Notes under the pieces: model-generated
Told to the model about the DNA's origin: nothing
Databases searched by the model: none
What the model saw: only the letters and a program-made list of their open reading frames with translations
Position numbers and translations under genes: made by a program
Part shown: positions 3,457-59,400 of the stretch, piece after piece
Layout: every line of letters starts with the position of its first letter
Position numbering within the stretch: position 1 is the first letter of the stretch
Origin: Lentisphaera profundi
Lineage (GTDB): Bacteria; Verrucomicrobiota; Lentisphaeria; Lentisphaerales; Lentisphaeraceae
DNA length: 64,000 nt
Assembly (NCBI RefSeq): GCF_028728065.1
Contig: NZ_CP117811.1
Span: 186,001 to 250,000 of the forward strand
Reading direction: 5' to 3'

Positions 3457-4977
3457 TTAATCTTCTTCGTCGTAGATCCTGTAGTCAGGATGGTTGTAGA
3501 GTTGTTTTCTAGCGAGCTCTTCGATGCTATTATTTGCGGTCCATTTTTTGCCATACTTAGATGAGAAAAAGGGGTGGTCCGGTTCTAAATGATTCGGAAG
3601 CTGAGTGATGAGATCTTGAAATTTTTTCTTCGCAGTGCTGTGTTCAGGGTTATTGTCTACGCGTTTGTAAGCTTCACCAAAACGTTTGTCAGCAGTGTAG
3701 TAGAGGCGACCATCGGGCTTGCCGTAAAGAGCTGAGCGAGCTTCGAGTAAATGAGTTTTTGTACGGAAGATTTGCACTGGTCCGGTATAGGCATAAATCC
3801 ATTCACGGTGAGTATCGCTCTTGCCAGTTAAGAATGAAACTTGGCTTTTACCGTCAAAAGGGACATCTTTTGGAAAAGGAACTCCAGCCATTTCGAGGAG
3901 AGTAGGAGCTACGTCAGAAAAGTCAGTGAGTTCTTCGCTCATGCCACGTTGTTTAACACCAGGGCCACATACGAGAAAGGGAACGTGAACGCCACGCTCA
4001 ACCGCTCTATCTTTTGCGGTTGATGCGGTGCCATTATCGGCACAGAAAATGAAGTAGGTATTATCATAGATATCGAGATCTTTAGCTTTCTGTACGACTT
4101 TTCCCACGAGCTTATCCATATATTGGATGAGATTGACAAAACGTTGTTTTTGCTTCTTGCTATATTCCCCCAAGATTCGTTCTTTATCTTCCTTGCTCAT
4201 ACCTTTGACATCGGGCTTCTTGAGCTCGATATCCATGGCAAGGCCGTTATCAGGAGTCGTTGAGTAGGGACCGTGAGGAATGACGATGGGCCAGTAAGCC
4301 ATGAAGGGCTGATTATTTTTGGCTTTGCGTTCCATGAAATCCATGATGAATTCGCAGCGTTGATCGGGGCCGAAATCTTTTTCAGTAGCATCAAGGTATT
4401 TGCCATTTTGTACTGTTGACGGGTACCAATAACGGTTGTCGGCTAGTTTTACATCCTTGCGGCGTCCTTGAGCTACGACGTCGATATCAAAGTGCTGCTT
4501 GATTTTATCCGGGCCTTCATAGATGCAGTACTCGTCAAAACCAACTTCTTGTTCATAGGGTTCGCGAGCACTACAATGCCATTTACCTGCAACGGCAGTT
4601 TTGTATCCGCCTTCCGAGAGTAATTTGGCCCAGCTATGTTGCTTGGTAAAGAGTGTGCCACGTGAATCAAAGGCCCACATATCATTGCGGAAAGCTCCCG
4701 TTCGATTGGCGTAAACACCAGTCATAATCAGGGCACGTGAAGGTCCACAAATGGCGGGTGCGAAGCAGGTTTTAAACTGCACGCCGTCGGCGCCAATTTT
4801 ATCGATATTGGGGGTTTGGGCTGAATGTGATTGGCCGTATGAAGAGAACATATCGGCACCGACATCATCGGCGAGAATAAGGACGATATTGGGTTTCTTA
4901 TCAGCGGCTTTCGCAAGGGGTGTTAATGTACTTGCGAAGCCAGCAAGTGCCGTGAGGATGATGGAGTTTATTTTCAT
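3457..4977 (-). CDS. Secreted sulfatase
   Basis: A 506-residue family S1 sulfatase with a signal peptide (about 1-24, ending AKAA). The metal-binding LADDVGAD segment is near residue 36 and the formylglycine motif CGPSR starts at Cys77. A second metal-binding segment, CADNGT, and the RGVHVPFLV stretch complete the catalytic domain. It should cleave sulfate esters from a polysaccharide outside the cytoplasm. It is closest to the two tandem sulfatases at 38074-39561 and 40850-42337 (shared DDVG, ICGxSRA and TDFSDxxPT segments), so all three are probably one subfamily. The ATG at 4977 has an AAAGG ribosome binding site. Two terminators follow the stop. Confidence 0.95.
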   Translation of the reverse strand: MKINSIILTALAGFASTLTPLAKAADKKPNIVLILADDVGADMFSSYGQSHSAQTPNIDKIGADGVQFKTCFAPAICGPSRALIMTGVYANRTGAFRNDMWAFDSRGTLFTKQHSWAKLLSEGGYKTAVAGKWHCSAREPYEQEVGFDEYCIYEGPDKIKQHFDIDVVAQGRRKDVKLADNRYWYPSTVQNGKYLDATEKDFGPDQRCEFIMDFMERKAKNNQPFMAYWPIVIPHGPYSTTPDNGLAMDIELKKPDVKGMSKEDKERILGEYSKKQKQRFVNLIQYMDKLVGKVVQKAKDLDIYDNTYFIFCADNGTASTAKDRAVERGVHVPFLVCGPGVKQRGMSEELTDFSDVAPTLLEMAGVPFPKDVPFDGKSQVSFLTGKSDTHREWIYAYTGPVQIFRTKTHLLEARSALYGKPDGRLYYTADKRFGEAYKRVDNNPEHSTAKKKFQDLITQLPNHLEPDHPFFSSKYGKKWTANNSIEELARKQLYNHPDYRIYDEED

Positions 4978-5104: not shown

Positions 5105-5809
5105 TTAGCGCAAGCTATCCCACATTGTGTTGAACATTGATGCATTGCTCCAAGGGTCTACACCGCTACCAGCATAGGTGGTGGCGTGTGGTATAGCTCG
5201 AACTGAACCATCGGGAAATATATGGTTGAATTTAAACTTGCCATGACTCCAGGGATAATCTCCATTCACGGTGCCTCTTTGAATGACATTCATTTTCATC
5301 ATGGCGGAGTTCCATTTTCCAATTGTATTGCCTGGATTGTGCCGCTCAGTGATGATAATTGTATCAGAAGGGTAAGTGAAATCGCTAAGTGTTAGGCTTT
5401 CGCCCGAGCCTTCATCGATGGCTCCGCGTTTACTGCTTTGTCTGCCACTGAGTATACCCTGAATAGCGCTGTAGGAGCGGTTACGGTTGGTGCCAGTATC
5501 AGTTTCATCAGTAGGACATGAGTAGAGTTTTCCATCGGTGTTGGATGTGCGGCCGTCATAACCTGTGCCGAGGAATTTATCGTAGGTGATGCGATTGAAG
5601 TGTCCAGGCAGGTGGCCTTTGTTATCTTCTGCGTACATGAAAATTGCAGTAATTATTTGTTTTTGGTTATTTTTGCATACGGTGATTTTGGCGCGCTTAC
5701 GTGCTTTACTTAGGCTTGGTAAAAGAAGGCTCGCGAGTATGCCGATGATGGCAACGATTACGAGTAGCTCGATTAAGGAAAAATTCTGTTTCTTTTTGTT
5801 ACTTGTCAT
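5105..5809 (-). CDS. Prepilin-type N-terminal cleavage/methylation protein
   Basis: A 234-residue protein starting with a basic leader and a class III signal ([20 protein letters not shown]) cleaved by prepilin peptidase, with the Glu5-type residue and a long hydrophobic helix. The rest is a soluble domain with CPTDE, a WSHGKFKFNHIFPDGS segment and a C-terminal MWDSLR. These are pseudopilin-like exported proteins that are abundant in Lentisphaerae; individual roles are unknown. The product is likely anchored in the inner membrane and could assemble with a type II secretion or pilus machine. It is paralogous to the truncated gene at 5961-6533 and the broken gene at 15082-15828. Confidence 0.9.
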   Translation of the reverse strand: MTSNKKKQNFSLIELLVIVAIIGILASLLLPSLSKARKRAKITVCKNNQKQIITAIFMYAEDNKGHLPGHFNRITYDKFLGTGYDGRTSNTDGKLYSCPTDETDTGTNRNRSYSAIQGILSGRQSSKRGAIDEGSGESLTLSDFTYPSDTIIITERHNPGNTIGKWNSAMMKMNVIQRGTVNGDYPWSHGKFKFNHIFPDGSVRAIPHATTYAGSGVDPWSNASMFNTMWDSLR

Positions 5810-5960: not shown

Positions 5961-6533
5961 TTAGCGTTGGGCATCCCACATGGTGTTATTGTTGCTCCAA
6001 GGATCTTTGCCTGTATCTAAATATGTGGACATATAGTGAGTTCCTTTAGCCGAGCCATCGGCAAAAAGATAATTAAATTTAAATTGCTCATGACTCCAAG
6101 TGAGGTTGCCGTTGCTTGTGAATGTCTGTACGTCTTGTGCTCGCATAACGCCAAAGCTCTGGCGCCCGAGGCGGTTCTTCCAGTAATGAAATTCTCCCGT
6201 CATAATCGTTGTTGTAGGGAATTTGACATTGCTTAATGGCATAGTCGCTCCACTACCTTCGACAACCATGCCACGTTTAGAGGCTTGGTTTCCATTTAAA
6301 ACTCCCTGAATCATACTGTAAGAGCGGAGTATATTTGGATCATTTTTGTTACTTTTGTCGGTCGGGCATTGATAGAGAGGTGCAGGTGAACCTGGGTAAT
6401 TATTCTTCATTTGAGTATCAGTTAGGTTTCTACCATCGTAGCCATTTCCTAAAAAATCATCAAAAGTTCTAGCGTAACGTTGACCAGGAACGTAATTATA
6501 TTTACAGTGAGTGTGGCCGTTTTTGGATATCAT
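5961..6533 (-). pseudogene. Prepilin-like protein lacking its N-terminus
   Basis: A 190-residue ORF that aligns along its length with residues from about 55 to the end of the neighbour at 5105-5809 (FLGNGYDGR, CPTDKSN, RSYSMIQGVL, WSHEQFKFNYLFADGS, MWDAQR). The class III signal and hydrophobic helix are absent. An in-frame stop lies seven codons before the ATG, and the region upstream is the leader of the divergent sigma factor gene. Without the helix the product could not be exported by the prepilin route, so it is probably a remnant. A cytosolic product cannot be excluded because the remaining frame is clean. Confidence 0.7.
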
Positions 6534-6620: not shown

Positions 6621-7226
6621 ATGATTATGACTGATCCCTATGTGACCCGCCAAACACTGCTTCAACGAGTACAGAACCCCGATGATGAACGAGCCTGGGA
6701 AGACTTTGTGGCTTACTACGAAAACTTCATCTATATGGTTTTGCGCCGCATGTGTTATAATCATGAAGATCATCCAGATTTAGTACAAGATATCCTGCTA
6801 AAACTTTGGGAAAAGTTAAAGACTTATGATGTCGAGAAAAGTAAATTTCGTACTTGGTTGGGTACGGTCATACGCAATACCTTCATCAATTATTTAGATA
6901 AAAAATCTCGTCGTCAAAAACGTGAAGATTTGATTTCGGATCCCTCAATGCGTGAAATGCTTTATGCGGAGAATGGAGATGAATTAGATCTTTTTATTCA
7001 TCGTGAGTGGGAGCTTTACGCGAGGACATTAGCGATGGAACGTATAAAAGATCACTTTTCAGAGAAAGCACTTATGGTTTTTGATCGCATGTTAGATAAT
7101 ATCCCTGTGGGTCAGATTGCCGAAGAACTGGACCTCGGCTCTAGCAGTGTCTACAAAATGGGCGAAAGAGTAAAAAATCGCCTGCGAGAAGAAATTAAAT
7201 TGATTCGTAAGGAATTGGAATTTTAA
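6621..7226 (+). CDS. ECF-type RNA polymerase sigma factor
   Basis: A 201-residue sigma-70 family protein with only regions 2 and 4. Region 2 contains DLVQDILLKLWEKL and FRTWLGTVIRNTFINYL (core binding and -10 recognition). Region 4 is the C-terminal helix-turn-helix (VGQIAEELDLGSSSVYKMGERVKNRL). A TTG-initiated transmembrane kinase follows with no gap, so the two are translationally coupled. That pairing suggests phosphorylation rather than a classical anti-sigma factor controls it. It opens a plus-strand cluster that includes DUF1552/DUF1592 genes and a zinc-ribbon pseudo-sulfatase. Two ATGs (6621, 6627) are possible starts. Confidence 0.93.
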   Translation: MIMTDPYVTRQTLLQRVQNPDDERAWEDFVAYYENFIYMVLRRMCYNHEDHPDLVQDILLKLWEKLKTYDVEKSKFRTWLGTVIRNTFINYLDKKSRRQKREDLISDPSMREMLYAENGDELDLFIHREWELYARTLAMERIKDHFSEKALMVFDRMLDNIPVGQIAEELDLGSSSVYKMGERVKNRLREEIKLIRKELEF

Positions 7227-9344
7227 TTGGATAAACGCCGCCAGATTAGTGAGCTTAGTCAGAAAGCAGTCGATCGACGTGATGAACGCTTGATGAACTT
7301 ATTTGAAGATGACGAAGAAGAAGTTCATGAAGGGATTATTTTTTCTGAATTGCGTAATTTAGCGGAAGATTACACTCAGAAATCAGATTTAGCCCGTGGT
7401 GGGATGAAGCAGATTAGTCGTGTGTTTGATCAGCGAGCGAATCGTTTTGTCGCCATTGCAGAATTGCTTAAAAAGCAAGATTCACGACTGTATGAAGATT
7501 TTTTAAGAGAAGCCAGATTAACCGCATTGCTCGATCACCCAAATATCATGAATATACATGAAATTGGCTTAGATGAGCATAATCACCCCTATTTCACTAT
7601 GGATTTAAAACAGGGGGATAATTTAGAAGTTATTCTCAAAAAAAGAGAAGCGGGTGATGCACTCTACTTGGAGAAGTATGGGCTCAATGAGCTTTTGGAT
7701 ATTTTCCAAAAAGTCTGTAACGCAATTGATTATGCCCATTCTAAAGCAGTGGTTCATTTAGATTTGAAACCAGATAATATTCAAGTCGGTGATTTTGGTG
7801 AAGTCTTGCTTTGTGATTGGGGACTCAGTAAAATTCTGGGTCAGAAAAATGATCTTGCGGTGGATAATTTATTAGATCCTGATGTGCTCAATAATATGAC
7901 CCTGCATGGTGTGATAAAAGGCACGCCGGGTTACATGGCACCAGAGCAAATCACCGGGGAGGCAAAAACACAGCAGACCGATATCTTTGCTCTTGGCTGT
8001 ATTCTTTATAGGATATGTGCGGGTAGGGAAGCATTTCGAGGCGAGGTTGAATTTCTTTTGAAGAAAACGGTGAAAGGGATTTACACTCCGGTAACAGAAC
8101 TTAATAAGTCTTTGGCTCATGGCTTAGGGGCGATTGTGGATAAAGCGATGAAAGCCATTCCTGAAGAGCGCTATTTTTCGGTTGATCAGTTGCTTTGCGA
8201 TTTGCGCAAATATCGAGAGGGCTTTGCAACTGAAGCGGAAAAAGCGGGTGCCTTACGTCTCTTAGCACTACTTTTTAAAAGACATAAGACGCTTTGTTAT
8301 TTTCTGGTATGCTTTTGTGTGTTGAGTGTTTCGGGACTTTATGTTTTTGTTGATCGAATTGCTCAAGAGCGAGCAATTGCCTTGGAAGAGCGTGATAATG
8401 CGCAATTGGCAAAAGAAAAAGAGGGCTTAGCAAGGGCAGAGGCGGAGCAGAATTTCCTCGTTGCGGAATCCGCAAAAAAGCAGTCTGAAAAAGATGCGCA
8501 ATTACTGATCGAGGAAAAAAAACAGCTCGAAAAATTGAATATAGAGTATGTCAATGATCTCGTTAGCCAGAGTGTATTTATTAGTGATAATATGAATTTT
8601 TGGGAATTGCACAATGATCGTTTACATAGGGAGACACTACTCTATCTCGATCGTGCTATAAGTTTAAATAGCAATGCAAAAATGGCCTGGAAGCAGAAAG
8701 CGCATTTATTATTTATCATGCAGCGCTATCGCGATGCAATGACTTGTTTCGACCATATAAAAGATGTCGATAAACTCAAAAAAATCTGTCGTGAATCGCT
8801 CGGGAAAGAGCGCAAAAGCTCTATTAATAATTTCTTAAAAGTACTGAAGGACTTGGGGCAACTGCAACCAAGGACTCATTATCGTAGTTTGATGGATCAG
8901 ATGGTGAGCTACGATCATCATGCGAACGCAAGGACCGAAGAAGATAAGATTGCGATCACTAGACTTTTGGTAGAAATGTGGCACCCGAATAAAAAAATTG
9001 GTTTTAAATTTAATGCTGAATTGCGCGAATTAGAGCTATCGGGTCGAATTAATTATCTTCGTTTTGAAAGAAATCCGAGTGGTAAGCGCCGTTCAATTTT
9101 ATGGTTATTGGAACCCAAAGTTTTAGTATTTAAAGATACGGAATTTAAGCAATTGAGTCAGCTCTTTGATTTACCCTTGGTTAAACTAGACCTGCGGGGA
9201 ACGAAAGCCAAAGACTTGAAAGCCTTGGCACAATTCAAAACACTTGAGCGTTTGATCGTTGAGGAAGGACAGTTTATAAAAGCTGAGCTCAAGGCTTTGC
9301 CTCAGTGGATTAAATGGACACAAAAAGAGCTCGGTGAGCCTTAA
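7227..9344 (+). CDS. Transmembrane serine/threonine kinase, WNK-like lysine placement
   Basis: 705 residues, starting at a TTG directly after the sigma factor stop. The kinase domain spans about 50-330: glycine-rich loop ARGGMK (Lys61), VAIA (75-78) where the usual beta-3 lysine is Ala78, alpha-C Glu95, catalytic HLDLKPDN (Asp179, Asn184), DWG (197-199) instead of DFG, and APE (238-240). One membrane helix (about 355-375) follows, then a coiled coil, a helical TPR-like region and a short leucine-rich C-terminus (VKLDLRGTKAKDL). The kinase faces the cytoplasm and the C-terminal region probably the periplasm, so it likely senses an external cue and acts on the sigma factor. The paralog at 44719-46773 has the same layout. 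Confidence 0.92.
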   Translation: MDKRRQISELSQKAVDRRDERLMNLFEDDEEEVHEGIIFSELRNLAEDYTQKSDLARGGMKQISRVFDQRANRFVAIAELLKKQDSRLYEDFLREARLTALLDHPNIMNIHEIGLDEHNHPYFTMDLKQGDNLEVILKKREAGDALYLEKYGLNELLDIFQKVCNAIDYAHSKAVVHLDLKPDNIQVGDFGEVLLCDWGLSKILGQKNDLAVDNLLDPDVLNNMTLHGVIKGTPGYMAPEQITGEAKTQQTDIFALGCILYRICAGREAFRGEVEFLLKKTVKGIYTPVTELNKSLAHGLGAIVDKAMKAIPEERYFSVDQLLCDLRKYREGFATEAEKAGALRLLALLFKRHKTLCYFLVCFCVLSVSGLYVFVDRIAQERAIALEERDNAQLAKEKEGLARAEAEQNFLVAESAKKQSEKDAQLLIEEKKQLEKLNIEYVNDLVSQSVFISDNMNFWELHNDRLHRETLLYLDRAISLNSNAKMAWKQKAHLLFIMQRYRDAMTCFDHIKDVDKLKKICRESLGKERKSSINNFLKVLKDLGQLQPRTHYRSLMDQMVSYDHHANARTEEDKIAITRLLVEMWHPNKKIGFKFNAELRELELSGRINYLRFERNPSGKRRSILWLLEPKVLVFKDTEFKQLSQLFDLPLVKLDLRGTKAKDLKALAQFKTLERLIVEEGQFIKAELKALPQWIKWTQKELGEP

Positions 9345-21495: not shown

Positions 21496-22947
21496 CTATT
21501 GTGAAGCGAGGGGCATGTGGAATTTTTCACTTTCATTGCGATTTGCCATCATCGCTTTATGGATGCGATCAACCATTTCAGGCATTTGCTTGGCAAGATC
21601 ATTTTTTTCAAAAGAATCTTTGTTTAAATCATAAAGCTCCCACTGGGGGACGCGACTAGTTTTTTTCTTTCCTCTTGGGAGTAAATTTTGGCGAACGCCC
21701 TTCCAGCGACCATCGAGAATAATCGCTTGTTGACCGCCGTAACCTTGGAATTCCCAAGCAAGAACGGGCTGAGGCTTTTGTTTTCCACCTAGAAGCTCGG
21801 GTAGGAAGCTGACTCCATCACTGCTTTCGGGTACGTCACTATTTAATAATTCACACATAGTTGCCATTACATCGACAAATCCACTCACATGCGAACTGAC
21901 CTGCCCCGCTTTGATTTTTTTAGGCCAGTGAGCAATCATCGGCACGCGCAATCCACCCTCATAGACGGAGCCTTTTAAGCCGCGAAGTCCTTTGTTGCTA
22001 TTAAAAAATTTATGATCCACTTCAATGCAATGACTGGCGCCATTATCGCTACTAAAGATCACGAGAGTTTTTTCATCAAGCTTGAGTTCTTTTAGTAAGG
22101 ACATGATGGAACCGACATGTTCATCAAGATCGGAAATCATTGCCGCGTAGCCTGCTCTGGGACGTAGATGGGGCAAGTAGTTAGCGTTGTAACTTTTCTT
22201 GGGCTGATCCCATTCTTTCGGATAAAAATCTACCCAGCTATGCGGTGGATGCATTGCGAGGTGAGGCTCAACAAAAGGCACATAAGCAAAAAAGGGCTTG
22301 TCCTTGTTATCACTAATAAATTTCAGGGCTTGTTCGAGAATGAGATCAGGTGCGTAATTTTTTGCGTAGAATTGAGAAAAATCAAAATCGGGACCGACGG
22401 CCTTTTTCCAATGACCAGGCACGGGCTTTTCATTGATAATAATTTTTTCATCATTACTCCACATGTGTGGGGGATAAAATGAATGGGCCACGCGCTGGCA
22501 GTTATAGCCATAGAAGGTATCAAAACTCAAAGCTTTGGGATCACTCGATGATCCAGGGTAACCGAGTCCCCATTTGCCGAAAGCCCCAGTAGCATAACCC
22601 TGGTCTTTGAAAATTTTTGCGAGGGTGATACCTGCTTCGGGAATAGGTGCTTGGCCTTCGGGTTTGTGTTCCCGGTTATTGCGCACAAAAGCTTTTGAAA
22701 GTTGCTTGCCAGTGAGTAGCACTCCACGGGATGGGGCACATACGGGGGCACCAGAATAATGTCGCGTAAAACGCATGCCCCCGGCGGAGAGTTGGTCAAT
22801 ATTGGGTGTCTTAATTTTAGTTTGACCATAGCAACCCAATTCGCCGTAGCCTAAATCATCGGCCAAAATATAGATCACATTGGGTTTTGCGGAGTCAGCA
22901 AAAAGTAAAGAAGATAAACAAAAAAGAGTGGGAATCAGGAGTTTCAT
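21496..22947 (-). CDS. Secreted sulfatase
   Basis: A 483-residue family S1 sulfatase. A signal peptide (1-17, ending LLFA) is followed by NVIYILADDLGYGELGCYG and the formylglycine motif CAPSR at Cys70. Further active-site segments are GKWGLG, FVEPHLAMH and SSDNGASH. It resembles arylsulfatase A-like enzymes that desulfate polysaccharides. It is convergent with the GH117 gene at 19855 across a palindrome-rich gap. The shared ECF-type promoter was not found upstream, so it may be controlled differently from its neighbours. Confidence 0.94.
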   Translation of the reverse strand: MKLLIPTLFCLSSLLFADSAKPNVIYILADDLGYGELGCYGQTKIKTPNIDQLSAGGMRFTRHYSGAPVCAPSRGVLLTGKQLSKAFVRNNREHKPEGQAPIPEAGITLAKIFKDQGYATGAFGKWGLGYPGSSSDPKALSFDTFYGYNCQRVAHSFYPPHMWSNDEKIIINEKPVPGHWKKAVGPDFDFSQFYAKNYAPDLILEQALKFISDNKDKPFFAYVPFVEPHLAMHPPHSWVDFYPKEWDQPKKSYNANYLPHLRPRAGYAAMISDLDEHVGSIMSLLKELKLDEKTLVIFSSDNGASHCIEVDHKFFNSNKGLRGLKGSVYEGGLRVPMIAHWPKKIKAGQVSSHVSGFVDVMATMCELLNSDVPESSDGVSFLPELLGGKQKPQPVLAWEFQGYGGQQAIILDGRWKGVRQNLLPRGKKKTSRVPQWELYDLNKDSFEKNDLAKQMPEMVDRIHKAMMANRNESEKFHMPLASQ

Positions 22948-24425: not shown

Positions 24426-26279
24426 TTAGCGTTTTCTTACATACATGTAGTAAGCGCCGATGATATCACCATTCGCGAGTTCACAAAAACTTTGGAAGCG
24501 GTAATCGCCTTTTTTGAGTTTTATTTTAAAGGTGATATGACAATCTGTTGCACGGACTTTCTGTGAATGAGAGAAGATTTCTTGGGTTCCATCAATACTT
24601 TGAACCACGAAACGTATTGACTTTATATCGAGGGCTTTCCCGGCAGGAAGATCGGTGACGTAGGGTACGTTTGTACGAGCGGGAAGTGCTGCGCGTATGG
24701 GTAAGTTGACTTCACGGGGCCAACGACGCAGCTCAATTTCATAATCGCCCTCGGAAGCGGCTTTGATGGTCCAGAAGCCGTTGCCGGGATTCGCCTCACG
24801 AATATGTTTTTGATTATAGACTTTGCCCTCGCCATGCCAAGCGTGAGAGGTAATGAGCACGGGGTTTTCGAATTGGCTACCAATGAAAATGGGCGAGTAA
24901 TCCCGAAAAACGTCGGAGAGGCTAGACCACCACTGATTATAGCTTTCATGCAGGCGTTTTTGAACTTCGGGAAATTGCTTAGCAACGTCGATGTTTTGAC
25001 CGGGATCATTTTTTAGATTGAAGAGCATCTCGCCTGAGTCCGCACCACGCCAGGAAGTACGCACGAGGCGCCAGTCGCCATCCATGACCGCAAATTCTTT
25101 GAATTTCTGAGGGGTATCAAGCTGCATGTTATGTACAATGAGACTGCGCGAAGGCTGAGTCTTTCCCTGTAAGTTGGGCAGAATGGAACGTCCGTCAAAC
25201 TGAATATCGCTTGAGTTTTGAACTCCGGCCATATCCATCAGCGTGGGCATGAGATCGAGCTGGGCAGTGAGAGCATGAATTTCTTTGCCTCCAGTAAGCT
25301 TTCCCGCTGGCCAGTAGATGGAACAAGCATTGCGATGACCGCCCTCATAAGCAAGGCATTTGGCTCCGCGCATGCCCGCGTTGTAGCCATTGATTAATAA
25401 AGATTTTTTATTATTGCTAACACCTCCCGCAGTGCCGTTATCTCCGAAGTAGAGCAGGATAGTATTTTCGGAGAGGTTTTTCTCTTTTAAGAACTGGCGT
25501 AGTTTACCGACGTTCTCATCGATATTTGCAATCATGCCATAAAAGTTGGCACGTTTTTTTATGGTTTTCTCAAGTTGTGTGCCCTTGAGTTTACCGATGC
25601 CATGTTGCTTGAAGTAATCGAGGTAGGGTTTGGAGTACTTTTCGTGAACATCCATGGGGCCGTGGGGCGCGTTAGTGGGGATGTAGCAGAGGAAGGGCTT
25701 ATCGCCTGAGGCTCTGATAAATTCTTTAGCGGAATCAAAGAGGAAATCGGTGCAGTACTGATTTACCTTAAGTGGCTTGCCATTGTGAGAATAAGTGGTG
25801 GTGAAATAATCGTTATTCCAAGCGTCGGGAGCCTCACCAATGACGCCTCCGCCAAAAGTGATAGCCTCTTGGAAACCACGATCGTGGGCACGGTAGGGGT
25901 AGGAATCACCCAAATGCCATTTGCCGAAGATACCAGTACGATATCCAGCGTTGGAAAAGATATCGGCAATGGTGGTTTCATCTGCACGCATGTAGTAACG
26001 ACCATAAAGTGTTGACCAAACACCGGTGCGGGCGGAGTAACGTCCCGTCATGAGTCCAGCACGGGTCGGAGCACACATGGGATCAGTATGAAAACCTTCT
26101 AGTTGTAGTCCTTCAGAGAAAAGTTTATCAATAGCAGGAGTCTTGAGGATAGGGTTACCCTTGCAACTGAGGTCGCCATAACCTTGATCATCAGTCATGA
26201 TGATAATAATATTGGGACGCTCATTTGAAAATAGTGCAAAAGTCCATAAAACTGAAATTAGAATAAAAAGCTTATTCAC
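24426..26279 (-). CDS. Secreted sulfatase with C-terminal beta-sandwich domain
   Basis: 617 residues starting at GTG 26279, overlapping the TGA of the upstream GH117 gene (GTGA), so the two are translationally coupled. A signal peptide (about 1-18) precedes NIIIIMTDDQGYGDLSC and the formylglycine motif CAPTR at Cys69. GKWHLGD, APHGP and FGDNGT complete the active site. Beyond about residue 480 an extra domain (GNGFWTIKAASEGDYEIELRRWP ...) looks like an all-beta accessory or carbohydrate-binding region. The same architecture occurs at 33504-35237. Coupling with GH117 suggests the sulfatase removes a sulfate that blocks the glycosidase. Confidence 0.94.
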   Translation of the reverse strand: MNKLFILISVLWTFALFSNERPNIIIIMTDDQGYGDLSCKGNPILKTPAIDKLFSEGLQLEGFHTDPMCAPTRAGLMTGRYSARTGVWSTLYGRYYMRADETTIADIFSNAGYRTGIFGKWHLGDSYPYRAHDRGFQEAITFGGGVIGEAPDAWNNDYFTTTYSHNGKPLKVNQYCTDFLFDSAKEFIRASGDKPFLCYIPTNAPHGPMDVHEKYSKPYLDYFKQHGIGKLKGTQLEKTIKKRANFYGMIANIDENVGKLRQFLKEKNLSENTILLYFGDNGTAGGVSNNKKSLLINGYNAGMRGAKCLAYEGGHRNACSIYWPAGKLTGGKEIHALTAQLDLMPTLMDMAGVQNSSDIQFDGRSILPNLQGKTQPSRSLIVHNMQLDTPQKFKEFAVMDGDWRLVRTSWRGADSGEMLFNLKNDPGQNIDVAKQFPEVQKRLHESYNQWWSSLSDVFRDYSPIFIGSQFENPVLITSHAWHGEGKVYNQKHIREANPGNGFWTIKAASEGDYEIELRRWPREVNLPIRAALPARTNVPYVTDLPAGKALDIKSIRFVVQSIDGTQEIFSHSQKVRATDCHITFKIKLKKGDYRFQSFCELANGDIIGAYYMYVRKR

Positions 26280-33503: not shown

Positions 33504-35237
33504 TTAAAGTTTTTCTACGTAGCAATAATACGCTGACATGAAGCTACCATCTGCCAATTGGAATTCACTGATTAGCTCCGCATCACCAGCCTCGAGTTGC
33601 ACCGTAAATGAAATGGATTTATCTGTTGTATTTACGTCTAGGATACGTGAGTTATTTTGTATTTTTAAGTGAGCTGATTTTGCGGCGATGATTTTTCCTT
33701 TTACGCCACCATCGGAGTTAATTGTTTTATCTGTCTCGGAGGGCCAGCGACTGAAAGTTATTTTGTATTCTCCCGCATCTTTTACGGTGAGCATCCATTT
33801 GCCTCGAGTTTTCATTCCAGCTTCAACTTGGCGATGATTCCAAGGAGTCTTTGAGCTCAGTAAATCGTGACTGGTGAGGATGAGTGGGTTCTCGTGAGAA
33901 GAGCCAATCATGATACGACTATTGAGGTGATGATCTGCGGAAGTACTAGCCCAGAAGTCTTCGTAACTAGCGCGTAAACGAGCGACGATTTCGGGGTGTG
34001 AGGCAGCAATATCTTTTTGCTGTTCGGGATCGGAGGATAGATTATAGAGCTGTTTACCATCAAGCAAGCGCCATGATTGATTCATTACAGAGCAACGACG
34101 CCATTTTTCGGGAGTGACGATGCGTTGATTCTCGACAACTAGGGTACGATCATCAAGTGTATTACTTTGATTATAAATAAGGTTTTTAAGAGAAGAGCCA
34201 TCGAGTTTTGGTGTTTGACTCTTGAGTTCGAGTAAATCTACTAGAGTAGGGAGGATATCGATATGAGCGCTGAGCGTGTTGATATCTCTGCCACCGCCAA
34301 TTTGTCCTGCAGGCCAACGCATAAAGAAGGGGACGCGGTGACCACCTTCATACTGAGAACCCTTTTGACCGCGCATGGAAGCCGTGAAGCCAAGTTTCTT
34401 TTTTGTCTTTTTATTAAAAACGATACCTTTGGCCGAGCCATTATCCGTGGTGAAGATAAGGATGGTGTTTTCGTAGAGCTTATTAGCCTTGAGATACTTT
34501 TCGAGCTTGGCGAAGTTATCATCGATATTTGTCACCATGCCATAGAATGCGGGTTCCGCAATATTGGGATTATTTTCGTAGGGTTTTTGGTACTCATCGG
34601 GGCAATTAAGAGGTGTATGAGGTGCGTTGGGTGATATATAGGCAAAGAAAGGCTGGTGCTTATTTTTGTCGATGAATTCAATGGCTTGATCAAACCAGAC
34701 GTCAGTGCAATAACCTTCGAATTTCTGCCATTTTCCATTCACCATATAAGTATCATCGAAGTAATCGTTGCCAAAGTAATCGGGAGTTTGATGAACGCCA
34801 CCGGCGCCATGCATCACAACTTGATCAAAACCGCGATCTTGGGGGCGGAAGGGGTAGGAATCCCCCAAATGCCATTTGCCAAATAAGCCTGTGGCATAGC
34901 CATTTTCTTTCAAGACAGAAGCCATAGTTTTTTCACGAGTCCTGAGCATATTCCTGCCATTGACTGTATGCCAAACACCATTGCGACCTGAGTAGCGACC
35001 CGTCATAAGGGCTGAGCGCGTGGGTGCACAGGTAGGATCCACATGATAGTTATTAAGACGTAGGCTTTCACTATGGAATTCATCTAGATGGGGAGTTTTT
35101 ATCCAAGGGTTACCATGGCAGGCTAAATCACCGTAGCCTTGATCATCGGTTATAACTATAATAATATTGGGTTTATCTGCGGCGGAAATAAATGAACTGA
35201 AAAGTACTAGGCTCAAAAAGTAGAGTGGTTTAATCAT
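33504..35237 (-). CDS. Secreted sulfatase with C-terminal beta-sandwich domain
   Basis: 577 residues from the ATG at 35237 (signal peptide MIKPLYFLSLVLFSSFISAA); the frame is open further upstream but an ECF-type promoter motif lies in that stretch. NIIIVITDDQGYGDLACHG, CAPTR at Cys70, GKWHLGDSYPF, NAPHTPLN and TTDNGS form the active site. The last 130 residues are a beta-rich domain (MKTRGKWMLTVKDAGEYKITFSR ...), like the sulfatase at 24426. It is first gene of a two-sulfatase operon with 32032-33486. Confidence 0.94.
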   Translation of the reverse strand: MIKPLYFLSLVLFSSFISAADKPNIIIVITDDQGYGDLACHGNPWIKTPHLDEFHSESLRLNNYHVDPTCAPTRSALMTGRYSGRNGVWHTVNGRNMLRTREKTMASVLKENGYATGLFGKWHLGDSYPFRPQDRGFDQVVMHGAGGVHQTPDYFGNDYFDDTYMVNGKWQKFEGYCTDVWFDQAIEFIDKNKHQPFFAYISPNAPHTPLNCPDEYQKPYENNPNIAEPAFYGMVTNIDDNFAKLEKYLKANKLYENTILIFTTDNGSAKGIVFNKKTKKKLGFTASMRGQKGSQYEGGHRVPFFMRWPAGQIGGGRDINTLSAHIDILPTLVDLLELKSQTPKLDGSSLKNLIYNQSNTLDDRTLVVENQRIVTPEKWRRCSVMNQSWRLLDGKQLYNLSSDPEQQKDIAASHPEIVARLRASYEDFWASTSADHHLNSRIMIGSSHENPLILTSHDLLSSKTPWNHRQVEAGMKTRGKWMLTVKDAGEYKITFSRWPSETDKTINSDGGVKGKIIAAKSAHLKIQNNSRILDVNTTDKSISFTVQLEAGDAELISEFQLADGSFMSAYYCYVEKL

Positions 35238-44718: not shown

Positions 44719-46773
44719 ATGGATCTATCTAAAAAACTACAGAATCTAGACGAGCTGGAGAATGACTTCAGCGAACAATTGGATTTACATGACTTATATA
44801 ATTTTTCAGAGCTAAATGCAGAAGAATTAAGTGAAGTGACTCCTTTGTTGAATTCTTTGTGTATTGATAGAAAGCGATATGGCGAAGTGCTTGAGTCATT
44901 CACTGGGGGAGAAAAACGAGTTGACCGAGTTCACGACTTTTGTGCGGGTCGCGATGTAGCGTTGGCGACACCACTGAAAAACGAAAATGAACTTGATTAT
45001 GAAGATTTTTTGCGTGAAGCACGCATCACCTCACGTCTCCAGCATCCAAATATCATGTCGATTCACGATATCGGACTCGATGAAAATAAGTCTCCTTATT
45101 TCACCATGGATTTTATTTCGGGTCAAAGCTTAGCTTTGCTACTGAAGGATAGGGGCAATAATAAAAATTTACTTAATGAGCGACTGGGACTTTTTCAAAA
45201 AGTCTGCGATGCCATTGCCTATGCCCATTCTCGAGGTGTTATTCATCTGGATCTAAAACCGGAAAATATCAATGTCGGTAGTTTTGGGGAAGTGGTTGTT
45301 TATGATTGGGGCTTGGCCAAAATTATTGATCAAAGAATCAAAGTTCCAGAGCAAAATGAAAGTTCTGAGGAGCTCGATATGCTCAATGATGTAACCCTGT
45401 CAGGCCAAGTGAAGGGGACGCCGGGCTACTTAGCTCCCGAGCAAATTGGAGATGATTGTGAAAAGAGTAAGAGAAGCGATGTTTATGCTTTAGGAGCAAT
45501 ACTTTACGCTATTCTGACGGGGCATCCGCCCATTTCTGCCGATAATATGGAAGACTTAATAAGAAAGACGAAGCAGGGCATTATTTCAGGGGCGAAAGAA
45601 ACTTATCCCGATCAGTTTATTCCCTCGAGTTTGAGTGCGGTGTGCATGAAGGCACTATCACGAGATCCAGAAGAGCGTTATACTTCTGTAGAAGAGCTTC
45701 AAAACGAAATTGTAAAATATCAGCATGGTTTTGCGACTGAAGCCGAACACGCCTCAACATGGATGCAGCTGAAGCTTTTAATGAAGAGACACCAGAAAAC
45801 TTTTTCAATCACAATGACCTTCCTCTTGGTGTTGATTTGTTTTGGGGCTTTTTCTTTTGTTCGAATTAGCCATGAAAAGAATCAAGCCTTGGCCGCTCAG
45901 AGCGACGCGGAAGAAAATTTTTTCTTGTATAAGACAGAAAATGAATTGAAGCAGAAGTTGGATAAAGATTTACGCTCCTTGGTGCATCAGAGTTCCCTGG
46001 GGGGGCATTATGAAACGACGCGAATTATGATTGAATCGGTAGATAAAGCCTTGTTAGATCCTGAGAGTCAATTGGATAAGAATCAGCTTTTGAGCTTTAA
46101 AGGTGACTTGCATTTTACGCTCCAAGAATTTAATAAAGCGGCAGCCGCTTATAGTGAATCGAATCCGATTTTATATGAAATTTCCAGTGAATATGCTCGG
46201 ATTAAAGTCGATGATGCGACTTTACTCAGTAATCGCCAACTAGGGGATTTATTGGAATCGTTTATTACTTCTAAATATAAGTATGTGGCCTATCAAACTT
46301 TTTACTATCATGTTTTACGCAGTGAAAATTCTGATCCTCAGTCCTATACAAAGGCGGTGAAAAATCTACTTGATTTACTCAATAATAAAGCGCATTGGCT
46401 TTTTGCTGAGCTTACTTTATCTCGTGGCAATGAGTTTAATCATTTAGATCTGAGTGAAGCCCCTTATCAGATTTTCATTTTGCCAATTGCTACCGAGGAA
46501 CCCTATAATGTACTTGCATGCCTGGATATAAATTCCATTGATTTTCATGGCAGTGATTTTTCTGATTTTGAGCGTCTTTTAGGTTTGCGCCTAGAGGTCT
46601 TGGATATTCGTCAAACCAAGTTAGGGCATGAAAAAATTAAGTTAATGAATGAGAAATTGGGCCTTAAAAAATTGATTATTGAAGAGGGGCAATTTGAAAA
46701 CGATCGGATTAAACAGCTTGCCAAATATGTTGAGATCGAAATTGTTCTCGCAGGAAAGCGGATCCAAGAGTGA
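44719..46773 (+). CDS. Transmembrane serine/threonine kinase, WNK-like lysine placement
   Basis: 684 residues. The kinase domain spans about 55-335: TGGEK loop (Lys66), VALA (80-83) with Ala83 at the usual lysine position, alpha-C Glu100, HLDLKPEN (Asp178, Asn183), DWG (196-198) and GTPGYLAPE. A membrane helix lies near 360-380 (ITMTFLLVLICFGAFSF). The C-terminal region is helical and ends in a short leucine-rich stretch (LEVLDIRQTKLGHEKI, KKLIIEEGQFEND), as in the paralog at 7227-9344. Unlike that one it has no sigma factor beside it; the nearest is at 55661-56272. It is probably a membrane sensor kinase of the polysaccharide response. Confidence 0.92.
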   Translation: MDLSKKLQNLDELENDFSEQLDLHDLYNFSELNAEELSEVTPLLNSLCIDRKRYGEVLESFTGGEKRVDRVHDFCAGRDVALATPLKNENELDYEDFLREARITSRLQHPNIMSIHDIGLDENKSPYFTMDFISGQSLALLLKDRGNNKNLLNERLGLFQKVCDAIAYAHSRGVIHLDLKPENINVGSFGEVVVYDWGLAKIIDQRIKVPEQNESSEELDMLNDVTLSGQVKGTPGYLAPEQIGDDCEKSKRSDVYALGAILYAILTGHPPISADNMEDLIRKTKQGIISGAKETYPDQFIPSSLSAVCMKALSRDPEERYTSVEELQNEIVKYQHGFATEAEHASTWMQLKLLMKRHQKTFSITMTFLLVLICFGAFSFVRISHEKNQALAAQSDAEENFFLYKTENELKQKLDKDLRSLVHQSSLGGHYETTRIMIESVDKALLDPESQLDKNQLLSFKGDLHFTLQEFNKAAAAYSESNPILYEISSEYARIKVDDATLLSNRQLGDLLESFITSKYKYVAYQTFYYHVLRSENSDPQSYTKAVKNLLDLLNNKAHWLFAELTLSRGNEFNHLDLSEAPYQIFILPIATEEPYNVLACLDINSIDFHGSDFSDFERLLGLRLEVLDIRQTKLGHEKIKLMNEKLGLKKLIIEEGQFENDRIKQLAKYVEIEIVLAGKRIQE

Positions 46774-47491: not shown

Positions 47492-48958
47492 TTGAATAAA
47501 TTATATACCGCATTGGCGATGATGAGCGCGATCGTTCCCTTTAGTTCTCAAGCAGAAAATTCTTTAAAGGATTCTAAACCCAATATTATTTTGGTGATGA
47601 CCGATGATCAAGGTTATGGCGACCTCGGCTGTCATGGACACCCCTTTATCAAAACACCAAATTTAGATAAGCTCTATGGCCAAAGCCAACGCTTCACTAA
47701 TTTCCACGCGAGCCCCACTTGCGCACCCACACGTGCGGCTTTGATGTCGGGTAGAGCACCTTATAAGAATGGAATTACACACACTATTTTAGAGCGTGAA
47801 CGCATGACTTTGGAAGCAACCACGGTGGCAGAAGTTCTGAAAAGTGCGGGTTACACAACGGGGATTTTCGGAAAATGGCATTTGGGGGATGCGGATGAGT
47901 ATCAACCCGATCAACGTGGCTTCGATGAAGTCTTTATTCATGGAGCAGGTGGCATCGGTCAAAATTATCCAGGAACACAAGGCGCCGTGCCGGGAACCAG
48001 TTATTTTAATCCAATCATAAAACACAATAAAAAGTTTGTTCAGACTGAGGGTTATTGTACAGATGTCTTTTTTAAGCAGGCCTTAGGCTGGATAAAAGAG
48101 CAGAAAGACAAGCCCTTTTTTGCGTACATCGCAAGCAATGCCCCCCATGGACCTTTTATTGTTGCGGACAATTATAAGAAAATGTATGCCGATCATACCA
48201 AAGTAGATAAGCAGCAAGCCTTCTTTGGGATGATCACTAATATTGATGAAAATATGGGTCTGCTGATGACGAAACTCGATGAGTGGGACTTAGCGGATAA
48301 TACACTGCTTATTTTCATGACGGATAATGGTAGCTCGGTGGGATCAAGGATTTTTAACGCGGGCATGAAAGGCGCGAAAGCAAGTGCCAATGAAGGTGGT
48401 TCTCGCGTTCCTTTATTCATGCGTTTACCAGGGAAAATTAATGCCGGAGTAGACGTCAAAAAATTGACGCGCCATTATGATTTAATGCCGACTTTTGCGG
48501 AACTCGCAGGTGCGGAACTTTCCGATGATCTTGATTTAGATGGTCGTAGTCTGCTTACTTTAATCAATAAACCAGAAGCTCAATGGGCCGATAGGAATCT
48601 CTTCTTTCATGGGGCTCGCTGGAATAAGAAAGGTGCAGGTGATCGTTGGGGTAAAGGCAATACTGATCCCGAAGGCGCCAAATATACTCGCTTTGCAGTA
48701 CGTACTGAAAAATGGCGCTTAGTGGGAAAAGCACTTTATAATATCGAAAAAGATCCGGGCGAAAAAAAGGATGTCAGCCAAGAATACCCCGAGATTGCAG
48801 CGGAAATGCTCAAATCATTTGATGCGTGGTGGTTAGAAGTTCGTCCACTTATGGTGAATGAAGATGCGCCACTCGATACGGGCAAGCCCTTCATTGAACA
48901 ATTTGATAAGCAGAAAGCTCAGAGTGGCATCCCTGCGTGGAAGGAACCCAAGCTTTAA
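47492..48958 (+). CDS. Secreted sulfatase
   Basis: 488 residues from a TTG with an AGGAG site eight bases upstream. A signal peptide (about 1-21) is followed by NIILVMTDDQGYGDLGCHG, the formylglycine motif CAPTR (Cys77), GKWHLGD, SNAPHGPF and MTDNGSSVGS. It belongs to the same broad group as 24426 and 33504 but lacks their C-terminal beta domain. Its last codons and stop are repeated 57 bases further on as part of a tandem duplication. No ECF-type promoter motif was found directly upstream. Confidence 0.94.
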   Translation: MNKLYTALAMMSAIVPFSSQAENSLKDSKPNIILVMTDDQGYGDLGCHGHPFIKTPNLDKLYGQSQRFTNFHASPTCAPTRAALMSGRAPYKNGITHTILERERMTLEATTVAEVLKSAGYTTGIFGKWHLGDADEYQPDQRGFDEVFIHGAGGIGQNYPGTQGAVPGTSYFNPIIKHNKKFVQTEGYCTDVFFKQALGWIKEQKDKPFFAYIASNAPHGPFIVADNYKKMYADHTKVDKQQAFFGMITNIDENMGLLMTKLDEWDLADNTLLIFMTDNGSSVGSRIFNAGMKGAKASANEGGSRVPLFMRLPGKINAGVDVKKLTRHYDLMPTFAELAGAELSDDLDLDGRSLLTLINKPEAQWADRNLFFHGARWNKKGAGDRWGKGNTDPEGAKYTRFAVRTEKWRLVGKALYNIEKDPGEKKDVSQEYPEIAAEMLKSFDAWWLEVRPLMVNEDAPLDTGKPFIEQFDKQKAQSGIPAWKEPKL

Positions 48959-56433: not shown

Positions 56434-59400
56434 ATGAATATTAAAAAATCTATCTATAGCTTTGGACTTATGGCGGCGAGCCTCAGTTCTTGGGCATTAG
56501 AATCCCCCAATATACTTTTTGTGATGGCAGATGATCACACGACCCAAGGCATTGGTGCTTATGGAGGTCGTTTAGCGCAATTTAATATAAGTCCGACAAT
56601 TGATACGCTGGCGAAAGAAGGAGCCTTATTGAGCAATACTTTTTGTACCAATGCCATTTGTACTCCGAGTCGTGCGAGCATAATGACGGGTCAATATAGC
56701 GCGGTCAATGGGGCGCCGATTTTAGCCGATCCACTGCCAGTTGAAAAACAGTATTTAGCCCATGAAATGAAAAAAGCGGGTTATAGCACTGCGGTAATAG
56801 GGAAATGGCATCTGCATGATCGTCCTGACGCCTTTGATTATTATAAAGTTCTGAAGGGGCAGGGAAAATACTTTAACCCAACTTTTTTTGAGAAGGGGAA
56901 AAAATCCATGGTGAAAATGGAGGGGCATAGTTCCGATTGTATCACTGACTCAGTTTTGGATTATTTGGGTAAGCGCGATAAGACCAAGCCCTTCTTCTTG
57001 AAGTACCACTTCAAAGCGCCTCACGATATGTTCGAAAATGCTCCGCGTTATGATTCTTACCTCGAGGATGTGACCATTCCTGAACCCGCAAGCATGTGGG
57101 AGCAGGGGAATCATGGCTCTATTGCTACGAGAGGTATAAATGATGACTTGCGCGACAAGATTGGAACCTCAGTGGGCAAACGCAATCCACGCCGTAATAT
57201 GGGCCTTGATTTGGCTAAAGCCTTTCCCGATGAAGCCATTAGTCAGGATCTTTCTGATAAGGAATATAAAAAGCAGGCTTACCAGAAGTATATCAAAAAA
57301 TATTTGCGCTGTGTGAAAGGCGTCGATGATAACTTGAAACGTGTCATTGATTACCTCAAGGCTGAAGGGCTCTATGATAATACCGTGATTATCTATACTG
57401 GTGACCAAGGCTTTATGCTTGGTGAGCACGATTATATCGATAAACGCTGGGCCTATGAAGAAACCATGCGCATGCCTTTTATTATTCGTTACCCTAAGAG
57501 TATCAAAGCAGGTTTGAAACTTGACGCTATTACTGAGAACGTGGATTTTGCGCCGACAATGTTAGATTTTGCGGGAGTCGCAACACCTAACTATATGCAG
57601 GGACGCAGTTTTAAAGATGAGCTTGAAACGGGTAAAGAAAATAGCACGAGTAAAACCGCCGCTTATTATCATTACTGGATGAATATGTTCCACCACGATA
57701 ACCCTGCACATATAGCGATTCGCACAAAGACTCATAAACTAATTATGTTTTACGGATCATCATGGGCCAATGAACCGAGTACTCCGCCTGCCTGGGAACT
57801 CTATGACTTAGTTAATGATCCAAAGGAAATGAATAATGTTTACGATAAGCCAGAAAATGAGCTTCTCGTGAAAGAACTGAAAGTCCAGCTCAAGCAATTG
57901 CGTGCCGATTACAAAGAAGATGATAAAAAATTCCCCTTTAATGAAATTATTGAAGATTACTGGGATTATGATGAAGAAGACCGTCAAAAAGCGATTGCGA
58001 TTGCAAAAGCGATGGCGGCTGAGCCAATGAAAAAACGCTATACTGCTGATTGGGAATCCTTAGATTCACGTCCCGTTCCGGCTTGGTATAATAAAGCGAA
58101 GTTTGGTATCTTCATTCACTGGGGACTTTATTCGGTGCCGTCTTTTGCTCCGCATGGAACTTATGCTGAATGGTACTGGAATGCACTCAAAGTGAAACCC
58201 GTCGGACAGAAAGAAATTAAGATGTCTCGCCATTTGAAAGTGAATGAATTTCATAATCGCGTCTACGGAGAAGATTTTGACTACGAAGATTTTCGTGATA
58301 AATTCACCTGTGAAATGTTTGATCCAAATCAATGGGCCGATATCTTTAAGAAATCCGGTGCTAAGTATGTAGTTTTAACTGCCAAACATCATGATGGTTA
58401 TACCCTTTGGCCCAATAAAGAAGCGAGTAAATCTTTTGGCATGCCCTGGAATTCAGTTGACTCGGGTCCGGGTCGCGATCTCTGCCAGGAACTTGGTGAT
58501 GCGGTACGTTCTGCGGGCGGAATGAAAATGGGCTTATACTACTCAATCTGGGATTGGTTCAACCCTTATGACGATCGCATTGACCTCAAAAAGAAAGCCA
58601 AAAATATTGATATGAAGAAGCATAATAAGTACGTGAAAGAAGTTATGTATCCTCAATTCCGTGAATTGGTGAGCAAGTATAAACCCGCACTCATTTTCTC
58701 TGATGGCGATTGGTGGGCAGATGATAATTACTGGCAGACAAAACCTTTGTTAGCGCAGCTTTTTAATGGCGCAATGAATCGCGATGAAGTGGTGATTAAC
58801 GATCGTTGGGGTAAAGGACGCGGCAAGCATGGTGGCTACTTCACAACGGAATATGGTTCAGGTTTTGAAAATATTGATAAACCCTGGGAAGAAAATCGCG
58901 GTATGGGCCACTCATTTGGTTTTAATCGTAACGAGGATTACACGCAATATAATAGCACGCGTAAACTCGTCTTTATGTTAGTGGACCTCGTGAGTCGTGG
59001 GGGTAATCTCTTACTCAATATTGGTCCAACAGGTGATGGCCGTATTCCAGTTGTTATGCAAAATCGTTTGATTGACATGGGTAAATGGATGAATGTGAAT
59101 GGTGAAGCCATCTACGATACCGTGGTATGGAAAAAAGCTTGTCAATGGAGCGAGGGCAATATTCCTCAATTCACCGCATCTGATTTCAAATCGGGTTTCC
59201 CCATCTTTGAAATGACCTTAGAACCCCAAGTAGGAAATGCTCATAAGCAACTCTATTTCACTAAGAAAGCTGATGTCATATACGGACTCCTTCCGGTATG
59301 GCCTGATAGCGGAAAAATTGAGATTCGTGATATTGAAGTGAGCGATGATTCACAAGTCACAATGCTCGGTGTAGAAGGTCAACTTCAATTTGTGAAAACC

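Follow-up and report, generated by a model that had tools for sequence, protein, structure and literature searches.

Kannan et al. 2007 (PMC1821047) described Wnk as unique among functional ePK families in its lack of K72, the beta-3 lysine, and the lysine of WNK kinases is located in beta-2 (PMC12599244). A displaced charge has also been described for the small-molecule kinase subfamily CAK-chloro, where it is shifted to position 55 (Kannan et al. 2007, PMC1821047); CAK-chloro differs from the kinases considered here in that it has Arg rather than Lys, carries Phe in place of the alpha-C Glu, and is of the choline/aminoglycoside-kinase type rather than ePK-like (PMC1821047). A 2025 review of bacterial pseudokinase families (PMC12599244) contains no family with such a loop lysine and does not mention Lentisphaerae, and we found no report of a bacterial WNK-like family, or of the clade described below, in the open-access full-text literature. 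On the regulatory side, the precedents for activation of an ECF sigma factor by an adjacent kinase are the ECF43 pairs EcfP/PknT and EcfK/PknS (PMC8999054, PMC13147305), where the sigma gene lies beside that of a transmembrane Ser/Thr kinase; neither PknT nor PknS is described in these studies as having a relocated lysine. The planctomycete groups ECF59, 61, 62, and 217, which we compared by their description, likewise come from PVC bacteria, have a sigma factor beside a Ser/Thr kinase and keep the acidic motif, and no lysine swap is reported for their kinases (PMC8999054).

The window, i.e., the whole stretch of 64,000 nucleotides of the Lentisphaera profundi genome that was analysed, encodes a 705 residue membrane Ser/Thr kinase (7227-9344, + strand, TTG start) in which a lysine stands in the glycine loop and none in beta-3, the arrangement of WNK kinases. 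Its membership of the Hanks-type family is shown by a Pfam Pkinase match over residues 49-315 (E 3.3e-35, 122 bits vs. a cut-off of 31.7) and by the fold, as PknB is the best PDB structural match to an AlphaFold2 model of the protein (TM 0.87 by target length); the best NCBIfam match, PRK13184 (chlamydial PknD, E 6e-56), is below cut-off. A sequence-only reading of this ORF had pointed to RGGMK with Lys61, VAIA with Ala78, Glu95, Asp179, Asn184 and DWG with Asp197, and all were found exactly where it had put them, including the Hanks-type catalytic residues Asp179, Asn184 and the metal-binding Asp197. Lys61 occupies the third-Gly position (that of WNK K233) of the glycine loop RGGMKQ (residues 57-62; 7395-7412, +), and Ala78 replaces the catalytic lysine in the beta-3 segment AIAEL (residues 76-80; 7452-7466, +). 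An alignment to PknB places Lys61 on the Ser of GGMS, again the third-Gly position, and matches Ala78 to the Lys of VAVKVL in beta-3, which is in register through position 78 inclusive; in a WNK1 fragment matching PDB 4pwn letter for letter (GSFK...AWC), the counterparts of Lys61 and Ala78 are Lys and Cys. In the AlphaFold2 model, which was built on an alignment of 41 proteins from the window and related loci (mean pLDDT 84.8; mostly 84-98 in the kinase domain, activation segment excepted), beta-2 (strand 61-68) begins with Lys61, and Ala78 lies within beta-3 (strand 73-80). Two resemblances to WNK1 that the sequence-only reading had stressed carry less weight: the 17-residue offset between Lys61 and Ala78 is indeed common to this kinase and WNK1 but is nothing special, the spacing in PknB being identical, and the parallel between VAIAEL and VAWCEL breaks down at Glu79, the residue after Ala78, which is Glu in just 8% of the family.

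The remaining landmarks of the kinase domain are Glu95 of alpha-C (7509-7511, +), likely, to judge from WNK1, to be the salt-bridge partner of Lys61; the catalytic loop HLDLKPDN (residues 177-184; 7755-7778, +), in which the Arg of HRD has become Leu, a change that the earlier reading had passed over; and the DWG motif (residues 197-199; 7815-7823, +). Beyond the domain is a transmembrane segment at about residues 357-375 (8295-8351, +; hydropathy peak 2.3), and of the 126 kinases over 400 residues that share the lysine swap, 125 have a hydrophobic segment C-terminal to the kinase domain. The C-terminal part (8451-9341, +), modelled over residues 409-700 as a long helix, a helical stretch and LRR-like strand-helix repeats, presumably sits outside the membrane and is probably the part that senses a signal.

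An unbiased Pfam kinase search of the 5.46 Mb, two-contig L. profundi genome gave 105 kinase matches, nearly all of which were examined. After duplicate removal, 58 of these kinases were swapped (Lys in the loop, none in beta-3), 32 were canonical (29 by alignment column and three shifted by one column) and none had both lysines. Three candidates for kinases with neither lysine (L012, L026 and L028) were rejected, as they read AMKVV, AVKVL and AALKVL, which makes them canonical kinases displaced by a single alignment column. A further 78 swapped kinases and 35 canonical ones, none of them with both lysines, came from relatives in named genomes and in the phylum, a set in which the swapped share is biased because the phylum search profile was made from swapped kinases, but the mutual exclusion of the lysines is not; thus, among all kinases with readable positions, none carries both. 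In the 136 non-redundant swapped kinases Lys61, Glu95 and Asn184 are invariant, Asp179 and Lys181 are each present in 135 and Asp197 in 134, and position 78 is Ala in 133, Val in two and Gly in one, while Trp198 is found in all 136 and Leu178 in 130, the latter two frequencies being biased outside the L. profundi genome as the contig scan used peptide patterns with HLD and DWG (positions 61 and 78 were absent from these patterns). The P+1 segment GTPGYMAPE and the catalytic-loop Lys are retained as well, and Lys61 is the sole conserved lysine of the N-lobe. Such reciprocal conservation, far beyond chance in extent, together with the single origin on the tree described below, gives strong support to the proposed WNK-like relocation. 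A second basic change tells the two classes apart: just before GTPGYMAPE, position 231 (7917-7919) is Lys or Arg in 115 of the 136 swapped kinases and Leu or Ser in canonical relatives.

Near-invariant catalytic residues, combined with the lack of any other conserved N-lobe lysine, fit relocation of the catalytic lysine rather than decay into a pseudokinase, and we consider it probable that the window protein is an active membrane Ser/Thr kinase whose lysine moved once from beta-3 to the glycine loop and which probably controls the ECF sigma factor encoded upstream. By analogy with K233 of WNK1, Lys61 would hold the ATP phosphates and pair with Glu95. The best surviving alternative, to which we would give a minor but real chance, is a domain without phosphotransfer that regulates the sigma factor by binding a ligand or serving as a scaffold, with Lys61 kept solely to bind ATP or for structural reasons. 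A missing beta-3 Lys is among the standard grounds for calling a pseudokinase (PMC12599244), and the window kinase does miss one of the three residues used for such calls (beta-3 Lys, HRD Asp and DFG Asp), but this is not decisive, as active WNK misses the beta-3 Lys too. It is also true that HRD has turned into HLD, and that a kinase fold could keep its catalytic residues for ATP binding without phosphotransfer; however, HLD is seen as well where the beta-3 Lys is retained, in some cases beside ECF-like genes, and the relaxation expected of the remaining catalytic residues is not seen, each being kept in at least 134 of 136 swapped kinases, with Asp179, Lys181, Asn184, Asp197 and GTPGYMAPE all near-invariant. 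Given an active kinase, control by activation-loop phosphorylation acting through the HRD Arg is unlikely since that Arg is Leu here, and pipelines that take a missing beta-3 Lys as the mark of a pseudokinase may misjudge about two thirds of the kinases of this genome. One swapped paralogue (L106:2084-3982, +) has degraded catalytic residues (HNT, GWK) and is probably a true pseudokinase.

The origin of the swap was examined in a tree of 64 rows from which columns 61 and 78 had been removed and in which canonical kinases of Planctomycetota were included; all 33 swapped kinases fell in one clade (SH-aLRT 97), with one change. Two origins had been suggested by an earlier tree, with 203 rows and none of these Planctomycetota kinases, where the canonical kinase L041 lay inside the swapped clade (two changes), but the added rows moved L041 out. 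The swapped clade extends over Lentisphaeria, Kiritimatiellales, other Verrucomicrobiota and two genomes classed as Planctomycetota. When 199 genomes from the phylum that includes Rhodopirellula rubra were searched, 20 loci came up, and every one encoded a DWG kinase. Eighteen of these kinases were canonical (loop Gly, beta-3 Lys and HRD, with one HCD), without a match to a sigma factor in the flanking DNA examined, and two (Rhodopirellula rubra and the MAG nwagbin3) were swapped and had HLD and a sigma gene. As the canonical neighbours carry DWG too, this motif is older than the swap, and the canonical DWG kinases of Planctomycetota differ from the window kinase by their beta-3 Lys, loop Gly and, almost always, HRD. 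By comparison, HLD is found in both swapped and canonical classes and requires at least 10 changes on the 203-row tree; L043:2042-3298 (-) and L162:3905-5050 (+) have a canonical lysine with HLD and DWG, L043 being also near a sigma gene, which indicates that HLD does not require the swap. The nwagbin3 MAG, titled Planctomycetota (L128, genome G200), encodes several kinases very near the Lentisphaera swapped profile, possibly as a chimeric bin or through transfer, and the best profile match in the contig scan came from a MAG titled Akkermansia muciniphila (L109), a title that may be wrong. Phage records gave distant kinases only, the best at about 28% identity.

WNK was not among the 60 best sequence or the 50 best fold matches of the window kinase, and the closest solved structures were PknB and other bacterial kinases. 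From these comparisons, and from a tree without WNK that places the origin of the swap among canonical kinases of bacteria, we take the window kinase not to be a WNK homologue; in bacteria the swap would seem to have a single origin, from canonical ancestors of the DWG type and independent of eukaryotic WNK. The two groups would share a third-Gly ATP lysine, a small beta-3 residue (Cys in WNK, Ala here) and otherwise retained catalytic residues, but the bacterial kinases are of separate, PknB-like origin, have DWG rather than DLG and HLD rather than HRD, and are membrane-bound with a C-terminal sensor-like part. If this is true, a separately derived bacterial clade shows that the lysine rearrangement is a repeatable evolutionary path.

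The swapped kinases also lack a conserved counterpart of the WNK chloride pocket. In WNK1, chloride is bound at the G370/L371 backbone and surrounded by F283, L299, L369 and L371 (PMC7606576), and the sequence-only reading had raised the prospect of chloride sensing by the window kinase; under this proposal chloride would occupy the space vacated in beta-3 and inhibit the kinase. The proposal draws on the shared relocation, the small beta-3 residue, the marine relatives and the suggestion that the relocated Lys of WNK1 may be what lets chloride bind (PMC7606576), and Leu200, the counterpart of L371, is Leu in 108 of the 136 swapped kinases (mostly L/I by motif alignment). The other pocket positions differ, however, F283 corresponding to V/I/L110, L299 to F/Y123 and L369, at DFG+1, to the invariant Trp198, and the change L369F raises autophosphorylation of WNK1 and activates it (PMC7606576). 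In addition, the HRD Arg to which the alpha-C Glu binds in inactive WNK1 (PMC1821047) is Leu in nearly all swapped kinases, and the DWG motif predates the swap and is present in canonical relatives. We therefore regard a WNK-type chloride switch as very unlikely on these alignments, and the swapped clade as natural material for asking why the lysine moves, here without a chloride site. Least probable of all, and hardly to be credited, is a canonical-style site reached by Lys82 or Lys83, a fallback named in the sequence-only reading, for although these lie four and five residues past Ala78 in the window protein, swapped kinases have Lys at position 82 in 9%, at 83 in 7% and at 77 in 6%, only Lys61 being invariant, and beta-3 is in register with PknB through position 78.

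Returning to the favoured reading of an active kinase acting on a sigma factor, its probable partner is the ECF sigma factor of 201 residues plus stop encoded at 6621-7226 (+), which matches Sigma70_r2 (E 2.5e-19) and scores above the cut-off of the NCBIfam sigma70-ECF model. The TTG start of the kinase directly abuts the TAA stop of the sigma gene (7224-7226), with zero bases between the two genes, and the sigma factor is thus of the kinase-linked kind, standing beside a Ser/Thr kinase. The coupling that had been proposed from this one locus gained statistical support from the L. profundi genome as a whole, where 44 of the 58 swapped kinases vs. four of the 32 canonical ones have a sigma gene no more than 600 bp away, 14 of the 58 swapped kinases having none at that distance; most often the sigma gene is upstream in the same orientation, almost without a gap. 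Distances between kinase domains and between their sigmas are correlated (Mantel r = 0.68, with 0 of 5000 permutations as high), which is what pairs duplicated together should give. The ECF43 systems resemble these loci in gene arrangement, but in ECF43 sigmas region 2.2 has Thr in place of the acidic DAED motif; the window sigma has an acidic DHPD (D50-H-P-D53) where ECFs have DAED, and acidic residues stand at the DAED positions in most of 90 partner sigmas. Activation of the ECF43 type by a phospho-Thr in region 2.2 is consequently not supported, and the ECF43 scheme, in which the phospho-Thr supplies the missing charge, is not directly transferable because the partner sigmas keep the acidic motif. 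No conserved phosphosite was identified; control of the upstream-encoded sigma by the kinase would probably be by phosphorylation.

We are inclined, by a narrower balance than for the window kinase itself, to a broader view in which these proteins form a second, independent bacterial family of active WNK-type kinases, derived from one lysine move that became fixed as the family grew to about 60 copies in a Lentisphaera-type genome; each of these kinases, without the HRD Arg, would control its partner sigma in a one-to-one circuit of sensor, kinase and sigma. The kinase complement of Lentisphaera marina, with 77 kinase profile matches, resembles that of the window genome. A set of kinase-sigma pairs of this size would be useful for studies of signalling specificity among paralogues and of the regulation of sulfatase clusters. 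The window itself contains a second swapped kinase at 44977-45705 (+) (locus L067), with a GGEK loop and VALA in beta-3 and with no sigma gene within 600 bp.

The surroundings of these loci suggest what the sigma factors may drive. Within flanks of about 2 kb, a pseudopilin-like gene is present at 24 of the 58 swapped vs. none of the 32 canonical loci (p 3e-6), and a sulfatase at 18 of the 58 vs. one of the 32 (p 0.002). The sigma factors would then drive nearby genes, often those for sulfatases and pseudopilin-like proteins, and the loci may represent local circuits controlling sulfated-polysaccharide use. Divergently upstream of the window sigma gene, at 5105-5809 (-) and 5961-6533 (-), are the genes for two pseudopilin-like proteins that are related to each other, the former carrying a prepilin-type motif at its N-terminus. 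The L. profundi genome has at least 151 sulfatase matches, and the window has many sulfatase genes, located at 3457-4977 (-), 21841-22884 (-), 25221-26216 (-), 34230-35171 (-), 47579-48514 (+) and 56506-57579 (+).
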